A DNA stretch of 25,125 bases from a virus, in IMG/VR virus record IMGVR_UViG_3300003691_000047, positions 1 to 25,125 of that record; one strand, 5' to 3'. How positions within the stretch are numbered: position 1 is the first letter of the stretch; the number at the start of each line of letters is the position of its first letter. Of this stretch, positions 2,045 through 24,437 are shown in pieces. The notes below the pieces were generated by a model. It was not told the DNA's origin. It saw only the letters and a list, made by a program, of their open reading frames with translations, and did no database searches. Made by a program: the position numbers and the translations under genes.

Positions 2045-2060
2045 TAAAGTGGAGATGGAA

Positions 2061-3929
2061 ATGCCTGAACCTATAAGTACTACGGCTTTATTAAAAAAAT
2101 ATGGTGCTACAGCTGGAGCAAAACTATTTCTTACATTAACTAAAAACATAACAAAAAAAATGAAGAAAAATTACTCTTCCTGGCAGAATACTCAGAAAAT
2201 ATCGAAATTATATTTACATTTAGTAAGCTATAGAACAGTTAGAACCCTTTGGCAGATGGACAAAAATGTTGACTTAATGTCTTTTTTTTGGGTTCCAACA
2301 ATTTCATATAAAGGAAAAGATATTAAAATAGAAGACGTTTCTGATTTAAAATTGGGCAGTAATCATTTGTTGATTCAAGGGATAGCAGGCCAAGGTAAAT
2401 CGATGTTGATGCGCTACTTATGCCAAAGAGAATTAATACATTGTGAAAGAATTCCCGTTTTTATTGAAATGAGAAAAATTACTAAAGAGTATACAATTTC
2501 GAAATTAATTTATTATACCTTTCAAAGTTTCGAAATAGAAATAGATGATGATTTAATAAATGATCTATCCAACTCAAAACAGCTTTTACTCCTATTGGAT
2601 GGATTTGATGAGGTTGCCCCTGAATTAGTTCAAGACGTTATTAATGAAATTGAATTCTTAATTAATACAAAACCTGGTATAAATATAATTATTTCATCGC
2701 GACCAAATAGTGCAATATTAAACTCTGCTTTGTTTGATGTAGCTAAACTTAATAATTTAAAAGAAGATGAATATAAGGAAGTAATATATAAACTTGAAGA
2801 TGCTGCAAATTATTGTGAAATTTCAAAATTATTAATAAAAAAAATTGACGAAAAGCCAAATTACAGGAAATTGTTATTAACTCCATTAATGGTTACAATT
2901 CTCATCGTTACTTATAAATTGAGCAATGAGTTACCTGAAGAAATATCAGATTTTTATAATAACCTGTTTACAACTCTATTAAGTCGACATGATGGGAATA
3001 AAGTAGGTTATGTAAGGCCAAGAAAGTGTGATTATGATGCGAGTAAGTATAAAATGATTTTTGGTGCCTTTTGTTTGTTTTCTAAAAATAATAAACTTAT
3101 TGAATATACAGAAGATGAAGTACAAAATTACCTAAATAAGACAAAGTCACATTTGAAAAGTGATTTTAATAATGATGATTTTTTGTATGATATAATATCA
3201 ATAACAAACTTAATAATTATTGAAGGTTTTAATTATAGATTTATTCACAAAACAATTCAGGAATTTTTTTCAGCGCACTATATATTTTCATTAAGCACAC
3301 CTTTGATTGAGAAGTTTTATGAAGGATTGACTGCAAACCCAAATGAGATAAGAAAGTTTTCACAAGAGCTCAGTTTTTTATATGTGATGGATCAATATAG
3401 ATATATTAAACTCTTTGTTATTAAAATATTTAATAAAAATAATTTTGTTTTTAATCCAAATAGCAAACCTTTAACGATAGTTAATAATTTCATCAAAGTG
3501 ATTAGTAGTAATTCATTTGGGCTGATTGGTAAATCAGGTAAAGATAATGAACTTCGTTACAATGCTATGTCATTGGGGCTATTAGGGGATTATGTTGGGC
3601 TTTCTAATCCCATTTTAGATGAAATTGGAGTGTGTCAGGCCTTGATGATATCATTAACTCAAGAACTTTGGTTAAAAGAAAATAATATTGAAAAAATTGT
3701 TGACAAAAATAAGCTGACTTATCACTTTATTGATGATGTAAATTCTCTTTTAGGGTGCACGTTTAACTCAGAAAATGAATCAATAGTAATTGAGTTTAGC
3801 TATTATTATAATAAATACCCTGATGAATTTATGCATATACATCAAAGAATAACAAAAATATTTATTAAAATTATAACCATAATTAATGAAAATGAAGATT
3901 GCTCAAAAATCGAAGATTTGTTTAATTAA
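2061..3929 (+). CDS. NACHT-family STAND NTPase, probable anti-phage defence protein
   Basis: This gene encodes 622 residues from ATG 2061, chosen because GGAG at 2051-2054 is well spaced; GTG 2049 and ATG 2055 are alternatives. An N-terminal helical part (1-100) has no recognised effector. The NTPase core shows Walker A GIAGQGKS (107-114, K113), Walker B LLLLLDGFDE (175-184) with the DGFDE form typical of NACHT proteins, and a sensor segment IISSRPN (210-216). The motif HKTIQEFFSAHY (396-407) is the winged-helix H-x3-QEFFxA signature of this class. The C-terminal 215 residues match no repeat I recognise and would be the sensing part. Bacterial NACHT proteins (bNACHT, Avs-related) sense phage products and trigger abortive defence. 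The gene is far richer in A and T than its neighbours and sits between the activator and the late operon, as expected of a recently acquired cargo gene. The NACHT call is strong; a defence role is inference. Confidence 0.85.
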   Translation: MPEPISTTALLKKYGATAGAKLFLTLTKNITKKMKKNYSSWQNTQKISKLYLHLVSYRTVRTLWQMDKNVDLMSFFWVPTISYKGKDIKIEDVSDLKLGSNHLLIQGIAGQGKSMLMRYLCQRELIHCERIPVFIEMRKITKEYTISKLIYYTFQSFEIEIDDDLINDLSNSKQLLLLLDGFDEVAPELVQDVINEIEFLINTKPGINIIISSRPNSAILNSALFDVAKLNNLKEDEYKEVIYKLEDAANYCEISKLLIKKIDEKPNYRKLLLTPLMVTILIVTYKLSNELPEEISDFYNNLFTTLLSRHDGNKVGYVRPRKCDYDASKYKMIFGAFCLFSKNNKLIEYTEDEVQNYLNKTKSHLKSDFNNDDFLYDIISITNLIIIEGFNYRFIHKTIQEFFSAHYIFSLSTPLIEKFYEGLTANPNEIRKFSQELSFLYVMDQYRYIKLFVIKIFNKNNFVFNPNSKPLTIVNNFIKVISSNSFGLIGKSGKDNELRYNAMSLGLLGDYVGLSNPILDEIGVCQALMISLTQELWLKENNIEKIVDKNKLTYHFIDDVNSLLGCTFNSENESIVIEFSYYYNKYPDEFMHIHQRITKIFIKIITIINENEDCSKIEDLFN

Positions 3930-7629: not shown

Positions 7630-9207
7630 ATGGCTCAGCAAATAACAATATATGACCAGTTTGGCCGCCCTGTTCCACCAACTAAAAAGCCTCCTGTTGA
7701 AAGTCGTGTTCTTGCGGCGGCTCCCGTAACTGACAGTTACCGGGAGTATATTGCAGCCGGTCTGACTCCTGAAAGACTGGCTGCAATTTTCCGCCAGGCT
7801 GATGCGGGTGAGATCCGGCAGCAGGCAGAGCTGTTTGATCAGATTGAAGAAAAGGACGCTCATATTCTGGCTGAACATGCAAAACGAAAGAACGTGATTC
7901 TGGATGTTGATTTCCAGATTACTCCGGCGTCTGAGGATGCCCGGGATTTACGGGTTGCTGAATTCTGTTCCGAGTGGATGGAAAACGTTTCTGACTGGGC
8001 TGATGTGCTGATCGGTATGCAGGATGCAGTTGGAAAAGGGTATTCTGCTTTTGAAATGGACTGGGATTATTCTGAGGGTCAATCGATTCCGACTCATTTT
8101 GATTTTATTGAGCAGAAGCGGTTCGTCTTTACGGATGAAAATAACATTCTAAGCAAGACACCAAAGCTGATCACGGATGAAGAGATGATGGGGATGGAGA
8201 TCCCGCCGTGGAAGGTTCTTTTTCATCAATATGGCGGGAAATCCGGACACCCGACACGGAGCGGAATTTTCAGGGTTTGTGCGTGGATGTTTCTGTTTAA
8301 GAATTACGCGATTAAAGACTGGCTGATTTTCTGTGAGGTTTTCGGGATGCCGTTGCGTTTAGGCAAGTATGATCCGGGTGCGAGTAAGGATGATAAGGCA
8401 GCTCTTCACCAGGCGTTGATGTCGATCGGATCGGATGCGGCCGGGATTATTTCAAAGTCGACTGAGATTGAATTTATCCAGAATTCCGGGACGGCTAAAG
8501 GGGATTTATGGGAGCTGCTTGCAAAATTCTGCAATGGCGAAATGAGCAAGGCTATTCTTGGCCAGACGTTATCTGCTGAGCCGGGGAAATCCGGGTCTTA
8601 TGCTTTGGGTAAGGTTCATGATGGTGTCCGGCTGGATCTGCTTCGGGCTGACGGCCGGGCTATGGCTGCGACACTTCGGAGCCAGGTGCTTAAGCCTATT
8701 GTCGGGTTTAACTTCGGATTTGATACAGCATTGCCAAAGGTTGAGGCGGTTTTTGAAGAAGAAGAGGATCTTAAAACCAAGGCAGAAACGTATGAAATAA
8801 TTTTGAACAGAACAGAGATTGGGGAAGATTTTTATCGTAAAGAGTTGAGGATTCCGAAGCCTGAAGAGGGTGAAACGACTGTGGGCGGTGCTCCGGTTGC
8901 GGGGATAGACACAGAAGGAGAGCCGGTTGCAGCAAAGAGTCAGCGGATTATCGCAAAATGGACCGGAATAGACCTTGATCCGGCTCCGGGCGATACTTTG
9001 ATAAAGATTGGTGAAAAAACGCTTAATACGGCCGATATGGACGCTTTGATTGAGCCTCTTGAGCAATTACTGGATGAGGTTGATTCCCTTGAGGAGTATC
9101 TGGGTATTTTAGATTATGCAGGGAAGAATCTGGATTCTTCTGCTTTGGGTGCGTTTATTGCCCGTGCAATGACGGTTGCGGCTCTGGCCGGGAGGTTTGA
9201 TGCCTGA
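7630..9207 (+). CDS. Portal protein, Mu gp29-like (DUF935)
   Basis: This gene encodes 525 residues from ATG 7630, immediately after the terminase stop. Features of the DUF935 portal family are visible: a start with YDQFGRPVPP, TDSYREYIAAGLTPERLAAI (36-55), a central GKGYSAFEMDWDYSEG, and HQYGGKSGHPTRSGIFR followed by KNYAIKDWLIFCEVFGMPLRLGKYD. Twelve copies would form the ring at the head vertex through which DNA passes and to which connector and tail attach. The gene is full length with no sign of damage. It overlaps the following minor head gene by one base (TGATG), so translation is coupled. Assignment is confident. Confidence 0.93.
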   Translation: MAQQITIYDQFGRPVPPTKKPPVESRVLAAAPVTDSYREYIAAGLTPERLAAIFRQADAGEIRQQAELFDQIEEKDAHILAEHAKRKNVILDVDFQITPASEDARDLRVAEFCSEWMENVSDWADVLIGMQDAVGKGYSAFEMDWDYSEGQSIPTHFDFIEQKRFVFTDENNILSKTPKLITDEEMMGMEIPPWKVLFHQYGGKSGHPTRSGIFRVCAWMFLFKNYAIKDWLIFCEVFGMPLRLGKYDPGASKDDKAALHQALMSIGSDAAGIISKSTEIEFIQNSGTAKGDLWELLAKFCNGEMSKAILGQTLSAEPGKSGSYALGKVHDGVRLDLLRADGRAMAATLRSQVLKPIVGFNFGFDTALPKVEAVFEEEEDLKTKAETYEIILNRTEIGEDFYRKELRIPKPEEGETTVGGAPVAGIDTEGEPVAAKSQRIIAKWTGIDLDPAPGDTLIKIGEKTLNTADMDALIEPLEQLLDEVDSLEEYLGILDYAGKNLDSSALGAFIARAMTVAALAGRFDA

Positions 9208-9911
9208 TGAGTAAATCAGCCCTTTATATGAATTTGCCCAATAGCGAAGCGATCGCATTCTTTCGTCAGAAAATGAATATCAGTACTGAGGCGTGGGATG
9301 TCCTTTGGCGTGAAATGCATAGTCAGGCTTTTAGTGTGGCCGGTGCGATCGAGGATGAGCTGCTGATTGATCTTCGAACGGCTGTTGAGAAAGGGATTGC
9401 TGAAGGGACAACGGTTCAGGAATTCAAAAAGGATTTTGCCGGGATCGTCAATAAACACGGCTGGGCATATAAAGGCGGGGCTGCATGGCGGGCTTCGATT
9501 ATCTTTAACACGAATTTAACGGTGGCTTATCAGCGTGGCCACTGGAAGCGGATGACTGATCCGGACGTTCTGAAAGTCCGGCCATATCTGCGTTATATCC
9601 GAAGTAGTTCAAGGAACCCACGACAGGCGCATTTAAACTTTGCTGATATTGTTCTTCCGGCTGATCATCCATGGTGGAAAACCCATTATCCGCCGAATGG
9701 CTGGGGTTGACAGTGTGGAACGGTCGGCGTGTCCGAACGAGAGATTCAGAAGTTGATTGATAAGGGTGTGAAGGTGAACAGGAAGGCTCCGGTGATTGAG
9801 TATCGGGATTGGGAAAACAAGCGAACCGGTGATGTTCATCAGGTTCCGATCGGGATTGATCCGGGCTGGGATTATAACGTCGGTCTTGACGGGTTTAAAG
9901 GTGCTGCATGA
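9207..9911 (+). CDS. Minor head protein F (Mu gp30-like), probable selenoprotein with in-frame UGA
   Basis: Read through, this is a 234-residue phage Mu F-type minor head protein, starting at ATG 9207 with a one-base overlap with the portal. The family features are RASIIFNTNLTVAYQRGHWKRM (95-116), RPYLRYIRSSSRNPRQAH (125-142), VLPADHPWW and THYPPNGWG (159-167). In the family this last motif continues C-x-C. Here codon 168 is TGA (9708-9710), followed by Gln169 and Cys170, and the same frame stays open for 66 codons with expected content (SEREIQKLIDKG, GIDPGWDYNVG) up to TGA 9909-9911, which overlaps the next ATG. UGA in place of a conserved Cys, with a SECIS-like hairpin just behind it, points to selenocysteine. 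A recent nonsense mutation, or two separate pieces (9207-9710 and GTG 9729-9911), are the alternatives. F-like proteins sit at the portal vertex and help head assembly or DNA injection. Confidence 0.8.
9721..9739 (+). promoter_or_regulatory. Candidate bacterial SECIS hairpin
   Basis: Arms CGGTCGG (9721-9727) and CCGAACG (9733-9739) form six Watson-Crick pairs with one G-A mismatch, closing a five-base loop CGTGT (9728-9732). Counting the UGA's U as 1, the loop G is at 22 and U at 23, close to G23/U24 of the E. coli fdhF element. A G within the first two loop bases and this spacing fit the published bacterial SECIS rules as I remember them. Confidence 0.55.
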
Positions 9912-10357
9912 CAGGAACGGCCATTGACATAAAAGTGGATGATAAGGGGCTGAAAAAAGTCCTTAGCCGTTTTTTAGCCAGGGTTGGCCATGCCGAACCG
10001 GCCATGAAAATCATCGGCCAGATTATCCGGACGTCCGTTGTTGAAAACTTTCAGGTGGCCGGACGGCCAGAGACCTGGAAGGCGTTGGCCGATAATACGC
10101 TGCTGACGAAGAAAGGCGGCAAGGTGCTTATTGAACAAGGGTTTGCCGCTGGCCTGATGGGGAGCATCCATGAAGAGATTTCGGCCGATTCTGTTCTGGT
10201 CGGAACGGACAAAGTCTATGCGGCCATTCATCATTTTGGCGGGATGGCCGGTCGTGGCCGGAAGGTTAAAATACCGGCCAGACCATACATGATGATTCAG
10301 GATGAGGACTGGCCGGAAATTGTGGCCAGCCTGGAAGATTATCTTTTGGCCGATTGA
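9908..10357 (+). CDS. Virion morphogenesis protein G (Mu gp31-like)
   Basis: This gene encodes 149 residues from ATG 9908, overlapping the stop of the F-like gene (ATGA). It has the Phage_tail_S / Mu gpG layout: an N-terminal amphipathic helix region, RTSVVENFQVAGRPETWKAL (46-65), LIEQGFAAGLMGSIHEEI (104-block typical of the LxxTGxLxxSI motif), KVYAAIHHFGG, then IPARPYMMIQDEDW. The family is needed for head or tail completion in Mu-like phages; some relatives act as tail-completion proteins. The gene is unusually dense in GGCC, about seventeen sites by eye in 450 bases, unlike the gene before it, hinting that it has a different recent origin. Confidence 0.85.
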   Translation: MTGTAIDIKVDDKGLKKVLSRFLARVGHAEPAMKIIGQIIRTSVVENFQVAGRPETWKALADNTLLTKKGGKVLIEQGFAAGLMGSIHEEISADSVLVGTDKVYAAIHHFGGMAGRGRKVKIPARPYMMIQDEDWPEIVASLEDYLLAD

Positions 10358-16093: not shown

Positions 16094-16489
16094 ATGGCAA
16101 GGCGACTTTCAGCACAGGAAAATACGCTTACACTTCATGACAATATTTCAAATTCTGACATTGTTCTCAGTTACAGAATGCCAACAACAAAAGAGCGGAC
16201 AGACTATCAGAATATGGCCGTTAAAAGAAAGCGGAACAAGATTGATTTTCAGTCGGTAAAAGCCCGGCAGAAATTCGGCCTGGATATCCTTACTGGAATT
16301 CGTGAGGGTGATTTTGAAATTGAAAAGACCAAAGGTAAGTTTGTAACAATTTCCTCTGACTCAAAGAGTGAATTTTATGATGAGAAGTGGAAAAAGCATA
16401 TTGAAGAACATGCGATTGATATCGTTGAAATTCTGGCAGCTCAGGTCTTTGACGGTTCTGTTGAAATTGATGGTGACGCCCAGGACTGA
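16094..16489 (+). CDS. Tail assembly chaperone, upstream (G-like) part
   Basis: This gene encodes 131 residues from ATG 16094, with AGGAGG a few bases upstream. It has the make-up of siphovirus tail assembly chaperones: small, charged, between tube protein and tape measure, with RLSAQENTLTLHDNISNSDI and YRMPTTKERTDYQNMAVKRK near the start. Such proteins coat the tape measure while the tube polymerises. A second reading frame opens at its end (16486-16758), matching the two-part G/GT architecture. No canonical slippery heptamer is visible near the junction. The upstream gap 16028-16093 holds no gene. Confidence 0.72.
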   Translation: MARRLSAQENTLTLHDNISNSDIVLSYRMPTTKERTDYQNMAVKRKRNKIDFQSVKARQKFGLDILTGIREGDFEIEKTKGKFVTISSDSKSEFYDEKWKKHIEEHAIDIVEILAAQVFDGSVEIDGDAQD

Positions 16490-16758
16490 TCGATGAGGAT
16501 CTTGAAGCCCTGAAGAAAGGGCTTTGCACTGAGACTGAAGAGGCGAAGTGCATTGAAGAGTTCGGAGAGAATCTTGAATGGAGCTGTCTGAACTGCCCTA
16601 AAAGAAGGCTTGAGGATCTGTCTGATTATACCAAAAAGCTGCTCCGGCTTCGACTTATGCGCCGGGGCGGCTATCCTTTCGGGGCGAATGATCTTGAATA
16701 TGAAGAATGGATTGATTTAGGGAGAATGGAACAATGTCTGGCAATGCCGGTGTTTTAA
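16486..16758 (+). CDS. Tail assembly chaperone, downstream (T-like) part without a normal start codon
   Basis: In the -1 frame relative to the preceding gene, the sequence is open from 16477 to the TAA at 16756-16758. From CTG 16486 it encodes 90 residues with natural composition: DEDLEALKKGLCTETEEAKC, a CLNC pair (34-37), and YTKKLLRLRLMRRGGYPFGA followed by NDLEYEEWIDLGRM. The GGYPF-x-ANDL-x-x-EWxxLG pattern is what I know from the second chaperone frame of related phages. There is no ATG until well inside. Either CTG or ATC at the junction is used, or ribosomes shift -1 between 16477 and 16489, where no canonical slippery site exists. It overlaps the tape-measure start by 25 bases. Confidence 0.65.
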   Translation: MIDEDLEALKKGLCTETEEAKCIEEFGENLEWSCLNCPKRRLEDLSDYTKKLLRLRLMRRGGYPFGANDLEYEEWIDLGRMEQCLAMPVF

Positions 16759-20654: not shown

Positions 20655-21039
20655 TTATTTACCGATCCTGGTCCCGGACTATGCTGGAGAAACACTGACT
20701 ATGAATCCCACGGGTGACATACAGGCTTCCGGTCAACGTCGACAGGTCATTACTGAGACTGACGGTGATAATCCAAAGGGGGTTACGCTTAAGCAGACTC
20801 CGGATTATTATATCCCGCTTTCTTTTAAATGGTTGTCTGAAAGTGCTCGAAATATACTTTCAGATCTATACTATAACCCTGCCAAAGCATACGGCATGGT
20901 AAAAAGTTTTCGCTGGCAACATCCTGTTTCTGAGGTTGTGTATGTTGCGCGGTTTGTGAGTGAATTTAACGAAATATTGCGCCCAAACGGATATTATGAG
21001 GTTTCACTGAGGATAAAGGTTATAGGGAGACTTTCATGA
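20647..21039 (+). CDS. Minor tail protein (distal tail / gpM-like)
   Basis: This gene encodes 130 residues from ATG 20647, which overlaps the tape-measure stop by eight bases; a TTG at 20641 is in frame but less likely. The product is beta-rich with YLPILVPDYAGETLTMNPTG, a central LSFKWLSESARNILSDLYYN and an end GYYEVSLRIKVIGRL. It resembles small lambda-M-like or distal tail proteins that follow the tape measure and start the tail tip. Its end overlaps the start of the large tip protein by four bases (ATGA). The role comes from position and shape, not from a firm family match. Confidence 0.65.
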   Translation: MLDYLPILVPDYAGETLTMNPTGDIQASGQRRQVITETDGDNPKGVTLKQTPDYYIPLSFKWLSESARNILSDLYYNPAKAYGMVKSFRWQHPVSEVVYVARFVSEFNEILRPNGYYEVSLRIKVIGRLS

Positions 21040-24000
21040 GAGTCGGCTTATTGGAAATTATTAATGCCACTCATGTTACTGTGGACTGGCTTTTTGAGTG
21101 CAACGGTAATTACTGGACGTTTGGTGATGCTGGTTCGTTTGGTGGTAACATTTATGAGTCAAAGATTATTACAGAGACATTTTCAGGGGTGTCAGAACAC
21201 CGATGCAATCCGGCTGATAATCTCATACCGCCAAATGAAACAAGATTCTCAATTGCAGGTGAAAAAACAGATTTTTCAGCTCCTTCATTTATTAGGAAAG
21301 ATTTAACGATCCGGATGTTGATTGATGGTGTTGAGAAGGTCGCATGGGGATTTTATGTTAAGTCCTGTTATTATTCATATGGCCGGTTTAATTTTTCATG
21401 TGAGGATTTTCTCCAGAAATATATGTTTAATTCTGAATTTCCGAATACAGAACTATTAAGCGGTTTCAACTCGACTTCTGCAAAATTCTCAGGGTCTGAC
21501 AAAGCGTGTATTCCGGAAGTCTTTGGCACTCCTTATGCACCGTTAAGGCCGATACCATATGATGATGAATGGCTTTATGTTTTGGGCATGGCGGGCACAT
21601 ATTCGATTGAAAAAGCTGCAAGCCCGGTGGATTTTGATTTTAGTTCTGAATATCTGACTCCGGAACATATGTTTACTCAGTCTGAAATAAACGGGCTGCA
21701 GGTGTTTGCGAATGATTTAGGTGCCGGAGGCGTCAATTCCCCCTTTATTTCAGCTAAAAAGATTTGTGACCTTCCGACACAGTTCTCAAAATCTGATACT
21801 GCTTTAATGACAAGTCCGGCTGATATTATATCAAGTGTCCTTCAGAAATTAGGTTTGCCAGTGGGGCTGATTGATACTACCGGAACTTTTGCCGCGTCAA
21901 AATCTCTGATGGGCACACAGGGTGTTTCATTTGATATTGCTTTTACGACACGTGAAGAGGCGATAAAAGTTCTTTGTAAGCTTTTGCTTTCCTGTAATTG
22001 CATATTGCTCAGGACCGACAAGGTTCTTTTGATTCCTCTTGAGGATGATGTTGCAGTTAAGACACTTACCCGGGATCATATAAAGGATTTTTCATTTTCT
22101 CCTAAGATATACAATGATGAGTACGATGCCGGTTATGTTCAATATTATACCGGTATTCAGGCCGGTGATCCGGAAGAAATACCGATTGCAATTAATGGTG
22201 TTGATTACAGCAATATTTCGAGTGAAAAATTATTATTGCCGTATATGTCTGATTCTCAGATCATCCAGAAACTTGCGATTATCCATTATCGAAGAAAATA
22301 TTTACAAACAGGATCGGTATCCTTTCAATCAAATTTTTCACTGCTTGATTTGCAGCCGGGAGACAGGCTTATAATTTCTGATGATCTGTATGAAGATTAT
22401 CAGAATGTTTACGTTGACAGTATAAATATTAAACCTGATCTCTCATTGAGTATTACGTGTAGCGTTTACAGTGAGGTAATAGGCGATTTAACAGATTATT
22501 CTCCGGCAGTGGTTACGCATGCAACGGATAACAGTCCTGGTATCGTGCCTTTGGCTGACCGTTGGTTGAAGCCGGTTTATACTCGATCTGCGACACTTCC
22601 GGAAACCCCAGCTGGTGATTCCCCGGCAGGATGGTCGGCAACAATACCGACTGGGGCTGATTTGCTGTATGAATCCGTTGCATGGTTTGGAAATAACAAC
22701 AAGCTGCTTGCCGGTGAGGTATGGAGTGTTCCGATTCAGAAAGAAGGTTTGCAGGGCGTTCCGGGCCTTCAGGGTGTACAAGGTGAGGACGGCGATCAGG
22801 GCATTCAAGGTGTTGCCGGCACAAACGGAAATACATCATATTTTCATGTAAAATATGCAGACGACGAAACCGGCACAAACATGAACGAGTCCGGAGGGGA
22901 TTATATTGGCACATATGTTGATTTTACAGCCGCCGATAGTGCAATCCCTGGCACATATAATTGGGTGCTTACAAAGGGCGTTCAGGGTGTTGCCGGTGAA
23001 CATGGGATTCCAGGTGAAAATGGCAGCAATGGTCAGACGTCATATTTACACATTAAATACAGTGATAACGGAACCACATTTACAGGGAATACCGGTGAAG
23101 ATGTTGGTGATTATATCGGAACATATGTGGATTTCGTGCAAGCTGATAGCACTGTTTTTTCTGCTTATTCATGGAAGAAAATCGCGGGTGCCCCTGGTGC
23201 GACCGGTGACACCGGTCCGGGGTTAACATATACCGGCGAATGGTCGAACACTTCGCAGTATTATGCAACGTCCGTAAAAAGAGACGTTGTTAAATCAGAT
23301 AATAATTTTTACGCCTGCAAAGGCACCCATGTAAATATAGCCGTTACAAATACGACATATTGGGAGGCTGTACCGGCATTTCAAAGCATAGCCACCGGCA
23401 TTTTACTTGCTGATGATGCAACAATTTTAAGAAGTCTTGTCATAGGCACAAGTACAGATAACGCACATCTTGAAAATTGTGCTATCAGATCAGGTATGAC
23501 AAGCCCTGATAATGGAACCGGGTTTTATATCGGGCGGCATGGCGGCAAAGCGGTTGCAAGCTTTATCAGTGATGACGGAGCAGGTTTTAAAATAAAAGCA
23601 GACGGAACAACAGAATTTTTAGGGATTACAGGTGATAACACAAAGACTGCTATCGATGGCGGCATTGTTACAACAGGTTCCATAAGGGATGCCGATGAAA
23701 ACCTTGTAATTGATTTTTCCACGGCTACAATGATAATAAAAAAAGAATCTGGGTTGTTGATTGATTCAAATGCCGGAATGACTGTTAATGGTGATATAAA
23801 TATTAATAGTCAGGGCAAGTTAAATGTTGGTTTTGGCGGTGAAATTAATTGTGATGGCAGTATAAATATGTATAGTGGCCACTTAACATTGATGGCGGAT
23901 GGTAGCGGACAAACAAGCGAATTAATTTTAGGCACTGGCTCAAATATTACCGCACGTATAGGTTCTGAACCGTTCACAAATATAGGCATGTATATAATGC

Positions 24001-24437
24001 CTGAATATACAGCAAATCAATATTTAAGTATCGGCACATCTTCAAAAAAATGGAAGGATATATCTCTTGTTGCGTCAAGTACCTTACAGATTTTAGGCGG
24101 AACATCATTGACAATTACCGGAACAACAATAAATCAAACCGGAACAACAGTAAATTTGACCGGTTCGTCTGCATTAAACCTGAATACCAGTGGCACTACA
24201 ACCATAACAGCAGCAACAAGCATTCATCAAACCGTAGGGGCAACAACAGTTTCAATAAAAAACGGCGGAATATTTGTATTTAAGGGACTTAGAACGTTGA
24301 CAACACACGGGTTCGGTAATGCTGCCGATGCTGTACTGTTGCCAAGTACAGGCGATTCTTATTTATACAAAATCGGTGAGGTAACTTATCGCAGATACCG
24401 AAGGGCAGGCGGAACTTTTTATTCTGTAGTCTTTTAA
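21036..24437 (+). CDS. Tail tip / central fiber protein with collagen-like repeats
   Basis: This gene encodes 1133 residues from ATG 21036. Residues 1-490 look like a phage tip hub: VDWLFECNGNYWTFGDAGSF at the start, YVKSCYYSYGRFNFSCEDFL, and LDLQPGDRLIISDDLYEDYQ with a VDSINIKPDLSLSITCSVYS segment. From residue 571 collagen-like G-x-y triplets begin (GLQGVPGLQGVQGEDGDQ and so on). Two similar units of about 65 residues follow, each with TSYxHxKYxD and DYIGTYVDF, separated by a second triplet run; a third run lies at about 716-728. A YTGEWSNTSQYYATSVKRDV module (730-780), with a final YWEAV, resembles carbohydrate-binding modules common in tail fibers. The C-terminal 350 residues are Thr/Gly-rich beta repeats (TITGTTINQTGTTVNLTGSS). 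It would contact the host surface. No Sec-dependent signal or intramolecular S74 chaperone is seen. Confidence 0.78.
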   Translation: MRVGLLEIINATHVTVDWLFECNGNYWTFGDAGSFGGNIYESKIITETFSGVSEHRCNPADNLIPPNETRFSIAGEKTDFSAPSFIRKDLTIRMLIDGVEKVAWGFYVKSCYYSYGRFNFSCEDFLQKYMFNSEFPNTELLSGFNSTSAKFSGSDKACIPEVFGTPYAPLRPIPYDDEWLYVLGMAGTYSIEKAASPVDFDFSSEYLTPEHMFTQSEINGLQVFANDLGAGGVNSPFISAKKICDLPTQFSKSDTALMTSPADIISSVLQKLGLPVGLIDTTGTFAASKSLMGTQGVSFDIAFTTREEAIKVLCKLLLSCNCILLRTDKVLLIPLEDDVAVKTLTRDHIKDFSFSPKIYNDEYDAGYVQYYTGIQAGDPEEIPIAINGVDYSNISSEKLLLPYMSDSQIIQKLAIIHYRRKYLQTGSVSFQSNFSLLDLQPGDRLIISDDLYEDYQNVYVDSINIKPDLSLSITCSVYSEVIGDLTDYSPAVVTHATDNSPGIVPLADRWLKPVYTRSATLPETPAGDSPAGWSATIPTGADLLYESVAWFGNNNKLLAGEVWSVPIQKEGLQGVPGLQGVQGEDGDQGIQGVAGTNGNTSYFHVKYADDETGTNMNESGGDYIGTYVDFTAADSAIPGTYNWVLTKGVQGVAGEHGIPGENGSNGQTSYLHIKYSDNGTTFTGNTGEDVGDYIGTYVDFVQADSTVFSAYSWKKIAGAPGATGDTGPGLTYTGEWSNTSQYYATSVKRDVVKSDNNFYACKGTHVNIAVTNTTYWEAVPAFQSIATGILLADDATILRSLVIGTSTDNAHLENCAIRSGMTSPDNGTGFYIGRHGGKAVASFISDDGAGFKIKADGTTEFLGITGDNTKTAIDGGIVTTGSIRDADENLVIDFSTATMIIKKESGLLIDSNAGMTVNGDININSQGKLNVGFGGEINCDGSINMYSGHLTLMADGSGQTSELILGTGSNITARIGSEPFTNIGMYIMPEYTANQYLSIGTSSKKWKDISLVASSTLQILGGTSLTITGTTINQTGTTVNLTGSSALNLNTSGTTTITAATSIHQTVGATTVSIKNGGIFVFKGLRTLTTHGFGNAADAVLLPSTGDSYLYKIGEVTYRRYRRAGGTFYSVVF
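22746..23220 (+). repeat. Collagen-like triplets and a duplicated ~65-residue domain in the fiber gene
   Basis: Three collagen-like G-x-y runs (from about 22746, 22978 and 23188) alternate with two related domains, TSYFHVKYADDETG...DYIGTYVDFTAADS and TSYLHIKYSDNGTT...DYIGTYVDFVQADS. The duplication is seen at the protein level; the DNA copies have drifted apart, so the event is not recent. Confidence 0.75.

Follow-up and report, generated by a model that had tools for sequence, protein, structure and literature searches.

An in-frame UGA at a conserved motif cysteine of a phage Mu F-like minor head protein gene is a probable selenocysteine codon

The closest described counterparts of the gene considered here are Mu protein F and SPP1 gp7 (PF04233, PHROG 220). 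SPP1 gp7 binds the portal, and a few copies of it go into the procapsid; efficient infection requires it, but assembly does not (PMC6316719). Our gene lies in a viral stretch of 25,125 nucleotides, analysed at its full length and called the window below; it resembles Mu F and gp7 in sequence family, in its place between portal and head genes and in the C-x-C motif, but whereas relatives mostly have cysteine in that motif, in the genes described here one or both cysteines are TGA-encoded. A second comparison is offered by bacterial selenoproteins whose motif is CxU or UxC, such as rhodanese form 3 (CxU) and the thioredoxin-like Sec.1 (CxU) and Sec.2 (UxC) (PMC13188914, Table 1), where TGA and Cys are likewise exchanged in a two-cysteine motif, with a SECIS-like hairpin and in hosts that use selenocysteine (Sec). 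Those proteins are cellular and mostly redox-active, whereas MuF is a phage structural gene with U at either or both positions; no thioredoxin-like fold was detected for its product. Among phages, the Basilisk-like Bacillus phages encode a tRNA-Sec, and the accessible part of that account names no selenoprotein (PMC6145125). The link to Sec decoding is thus shared, but theirs is a tRNA gene, whereas neither the window nor the TGA-bearing MuF loci examined yielded a tRNA-Sec. The table of 119 prokaryotic selenoprotein families in a 2026 review contains no phage or capsid protein, and the word "phage" is absent from the review's text (PMC13188914); the accessible portions of the 2025 deep-Sep paper and of earlier metagenome surveys contain no phage selenoprotein either. 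To our knowledge, and within the literature covered, phages have no earlier selenoprotein family than the one these genes would form, which would also include the first Sec in a predicted phage virion protein; this priority is not certain.

The MuF gene starts with an ATG and belongs to a Mu-like head module, directly after the portal gene and before a tail-completion gene (Table 1). The preliminary description, made from the letters alone, had placed an in-frame TGA at the first cysteine of PPNGWG-C-x-C in an F-like gene, and both the DNA reading and the relatives agree: codon 168 is TGA, directly after PPNGWG, and is followed by CAG and TGT, so that Cys170 is kept as described. It is the only TGA inside the frame, which continues for 66 sense codons to a stop (TGA, 9909-9911) that forms an ATGA overlap with the next gene. 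Translated with Cys at the TGA, the gene product matches Pfam Phage_Mu_F at 43.2 bits (curated cut-off, 29.6) and, at 1.3e-73 over residues 4-228, PHROG 220 ("minor head protein and DNA pilot"); homology therefore spans the TGA, and the family content anticipated beyond it is present. The related NCBIfam domain TIGR01641 stays below its cut-off (21 versus 39.65 bits). In the alignment H142 and H160 are invariant, and the tail after TGA168 retains all family residues.

Table 1. Positions in the window of the MuF gene, its motif, its neighbours and the candidate hairpins
Feature	Position	Strand	Basis or details
Portal protein gene, adjoins the MuF gene upstream	7630..9207	+	PHROG 113, 1.8e-133
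MuF gene (Mu F-like minor head protein), 234 residues when UGA168 is decoded	9207..9911	+	Translation, Pfam PF04233, PHROG 220
PPNGWG, invariant, preceding the proposed Sec codon	9690..9707	+	Alignment
In-frame TGA, proposed selenocysteine 168	9708..9710	+	DNA reading, homolog comparison
Most stable hairpin past the UGA, candidate atypical SECIS	9713..9738	+	-7.0 kcal/mol, loop GUCGG at +13..+17
Cys170 codon (TGT), the cysteine of the UxC motif	9714..9716	+	DNA reading, alignment
Alternative hairpin UCGG-CGUGU-CCGA, candidate SECIS	9721..9739	+	Canonical spacing, loop +18..+22, -5.2 kcal/mol
Gene after MuF, encoding a tail completion or Neck1 protein; overlaps MuF by 4 bases	9908..10357	+	PHROG 26

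Downstream of TGA168 there is also an ORF of 60 amino acids that begins with GTG (9729-9911), and the locus could accordingly be read as a gene for a 167-residue head protein followed by a separate one restarting at that GTG. The Cys homologs are one continuous protein, and the long MuF homologs have about 240 residues downstream of the TGA; we regard two genes as extremely improbable. In one long homolog (L097:1764-3026, + strand) the part after the TGA includes a PBECR2 nuclease-like domain.

The AlphaFold model of the window protein has a mean pLDDT of 69.6 and gave no usable PDB match with Foldseek or VIA-align; we therefore claim no fold or site geometry. A weak sequence match to PDB 7rdr covered 20 residues only and was set aside. 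An Rfam scan of the window returned no match, and among isolate phages the nearest match just 3% of the head region, at about 66%. Elsewhere in the window, an early-region gene (2049-3929, + strand), possibly a defence or accessory gene, encodes a 626-residue protein that looks NACHT-like and has a Walker-A-like motif (GIAGQGKS). A tail-region protein (21036-24437, + strand) contains collagen-like GxxG stretches (GVPGLQGVQGEDGDQGIQG), and a short gene (16094-16734, + strand) and a gap lie upstream of a tape-measure-like gene, the usual place of tail assembly chaperone frameshifts.

Relatives of the MuF gene show how the TGA is distributed. A search made without using codon 168 recovered 80 relatives. 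Relatives carry PPNGWG-C-x-C where the window has PPNGWG-U-x-C, so that the TGA is aligned with a conserved cysteine; two of the 80, L022 and L023, of one lineage 48% identical to the window protein, also have TGA at this codon. When the DNA pattern PPNGW-x-TGA-x-C was run over viral contigs, it matched 22 stretches, of which 21 were true MuF genes, giving 21 more genes besides the window. On the same contigs TGA at the second cysteine (CxU) gave 24 raw matches, 14 of them MuF genes, and TGA at both (UxU) gave two distinct MuF genes, L270 and L271, in each of which Sec is predicted at both sites, two codons from one another. Replacement of the second cysteine, or of both, goes beyond the preliminary description. 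The same pattern with TAA or TAG at codon 168 found nothing in the viral contigs, and moving the TGA two codons upstream, to the invariant Trp, gave 18 raw matches, none in a MuF gene. TGA at exactly two Cys codons is not what random nonsense mutation or sequencing error would pick out. Across 157 MuF loci (32,752 codons), the in-frame stops within aligned regions were four TGAs, all at codon 168, a count not independent of the pattern search because the census was seeded by the genomes that contribute two of these four loci. The pattern scan of genome contigs held two MuF genes among the matches listed, the rest being chance matches in other frames. Two TAG stops were met in the profile search, in G054 (where the MuF domain ends) and in G785. 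A weak MuF fragment with one in-frame TGA (G393:C1:858699-858797, E 3e-4) was also seen, in the phylum of G001.

These distributions bear on whether the window TGA is a recent nonsense mutation, or a sequencing error, of a Cys codon, leaving a truncated and perhaps dead protein. TGA is one base from TGC and TGT, the window hairpin is the weakest of its set, and the sequence is a single contig for which no near copy was found. That many independent relatives have TGA at exactly codon 168 and none TAA or TAG, that the frame has no other stop and keeps the family residues of its tail, and that the window groups with the TGA relative L085 all tell against such an origin, which we judge improbable.

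In a tree of 117 proteins built with both motif columns masked, the distribution of U-bearing and C-bearing sequences needs at least 14 changes, and nine are forced by starred branches for the CxC group. The window, L085 (UxC) and L012 (CxC) together make up one starred set. Most TGA-TGA pairs have dN/dS of about 0.07-0.20 after the TGA, with similar values upstream; constraint past the TGA is weaker for L088/L100 (0.90) and L093/L095 (0.42), and some TGA pairs are saturated. These ratios indicate that purifying selection is acting on the codons past the TGA in most TGA-bearing pairs.

The preliminary description also held that a hairpin behind the UGA follows the bacterial SECIS rules, and this stood only in part. 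The bSECIS rule asks for a small loop with an early G, a spacing of 16-37 nt and an energy of -7.5 kcal/mol or lower, and a subset of accepted selenoprotein genes also misses the model (PMC13188914). In the window the alternative hairpin has the right geometry, its loop starting 18 nt past the UGA with G at loop position 2, but it falls short of the energy rule and is not better than synonymous recodings (p 0.82). The most stable hairpin narrowly misses the energy rule and, with a spacing of 12, lies too near the UGA. Under constraints close to the published ones (PMC13188914), a SECIS-like hairpin at or below -7.5 kcal/mol followed 28 of 29 TGA sites, the window included, versus 27 of 68 Cys sites (Fisher 6e-8, ignoring the kinship of the sequences). 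Scoring with bSECIS rules thus bore out the suggestion for the relatives and not for the window itself, the lone failing site and the one with the weakest hairpin. Over the 42 nt past the site, folding energies compared with synonymous recodings gave a mean z of -1.65 for UxC genes (n=19) and -0.34 for Cys genes (n=68). One hairpin class, UCCGCC-CGUGA-GGUGGA, is common to many UxC and CxU genes; three of its six pairs have changed on both sides with all cells paired, the compensatory changes being seen in L101, L167 and L254. The Cys gene L003 also retains this hairpin. The SECIS of the window may be atypical, or may be in the course of being lost.

Two bacterial MAGs, a Desulfobacteraceae (L167) and a Nitrospirae (L216), contain TGA MuF genes, and both of these genomes that hold relatives (2/2) have selA, selB, tRNA-Sec (selC) and selD over cut-off. 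In the Nitrospirae MAG, selB (28657-30510) and the MuF gene (48574-49233) share contig C85, of 72 kb. The selD of both MAGs (L372 and L373, in G001 and G002) has an in-frame TGA and appears to be a selenoprotein itself. A census of about 1,180 genomes from two phyla, with a class re-scan, found no TGA host beyond the two seeding genomes. Since selA also turns up in 58 of the 65 genomes from these phyla that encode a Cys-type MuF, the host evidence is consistent and not discriminating, and selA was dropped as a host discriminator on account of this high base rate.

Read-through need not mean Sec. TGA is the ordinary stop at ten gene ends in the window, so the code is not reassigned, and we rejected a reassigned genetic code. 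Some bacteria have tRNA-Cys variants that read UGA, and UGA168 might be read as Cys by a selC*-type tRNA-Cys(UCA), or as Trp or another residue by leaky termination that yields truncated and extended forms. Set against this are the Sec-type hairpins behind the TGAs, the canonical selA/B/C/D and Sec-type selD in both identified host genomes, and the restriction of TGA to the motif Cys positions, never the adjacent Trp; decoding as another residue seems very improbable.

We therefore prefer decoding of UGA168 in the window MuF gene as selenocysteine, with a probability of roughly 0.88. The preliminary description had reached the same reading, and had proposed looking for homologs with Cys at codon 168 and for other phages with TGA there; relatives of both kinds were found, the latter many and independent, and together with hairpins that are commoner after TGA than after Cys, and with TGA-bearing MuF genes in bacterial genomes that have the full Sec machinery, they support it. 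For the family as a whole, Sec insertion is very well supported by these sequence comparisons. For the window copy it is likely and not proven, a lower grade because its own hairpin is the weakest and misses the energy cut-off and because the host genomes examined are those that hold relatives.

If UGA168 is so decoded, the host SelA/SelB/SelC/SelD machinery would insert Sec under the direction of an mRNA hairpin just past the codon, and the product would be a full-length MuF protein in which a Sec-x-Cys pair replaces the Cys-x-Cys of the family. This protein probably enters the procapsid with the portal, as SPP1 gp7 does. The pair, in its C-x-C, U-x-C, C-x-U and U-x-U forms, most likely either is bonded as a selenenylsulfide or disulfide or serves as a metal ligand, and such a dichalcogenide or metal site could stabilise or switch the C-terminal part. 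Sec at position 1, 2 or both suggests equivalent residues, which favours a dichalcogenide bond or metal ligation, possibly with H142 and H160 taking part, over a single catalytic nucleophile; this proposal is a guess. Sec might also act as a switch, with full-length MuF made only in cells with active selenium metabolism, so that host selenium or redox state would govern completion of this protein of the portal vertex as well as delivery, by long homologs, of the PBECR2-type nuclease domain encoded past the UGA, the U/C pair then acting within the capsid as a redox switch or a metal switch. We consider this extension unlikely.

If selenocysteine is indeed inserted, repeated exchange of Cys and Sec would have produced a selenoprotein family of predicted phage virion proteins, and virus assembly or infection would depend on host SelB/SelC and selenium supply. 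In homologs such as L097, whether the PBECR2 domain is made would hinge on Sec decoding. Standard phage annotation would truncate TGA-bearing MuF genes. The natural series CxC, UxC, CxU and UxU provides a route to the role of the old C-x-C motif of Mu F and SPP1 gp7.
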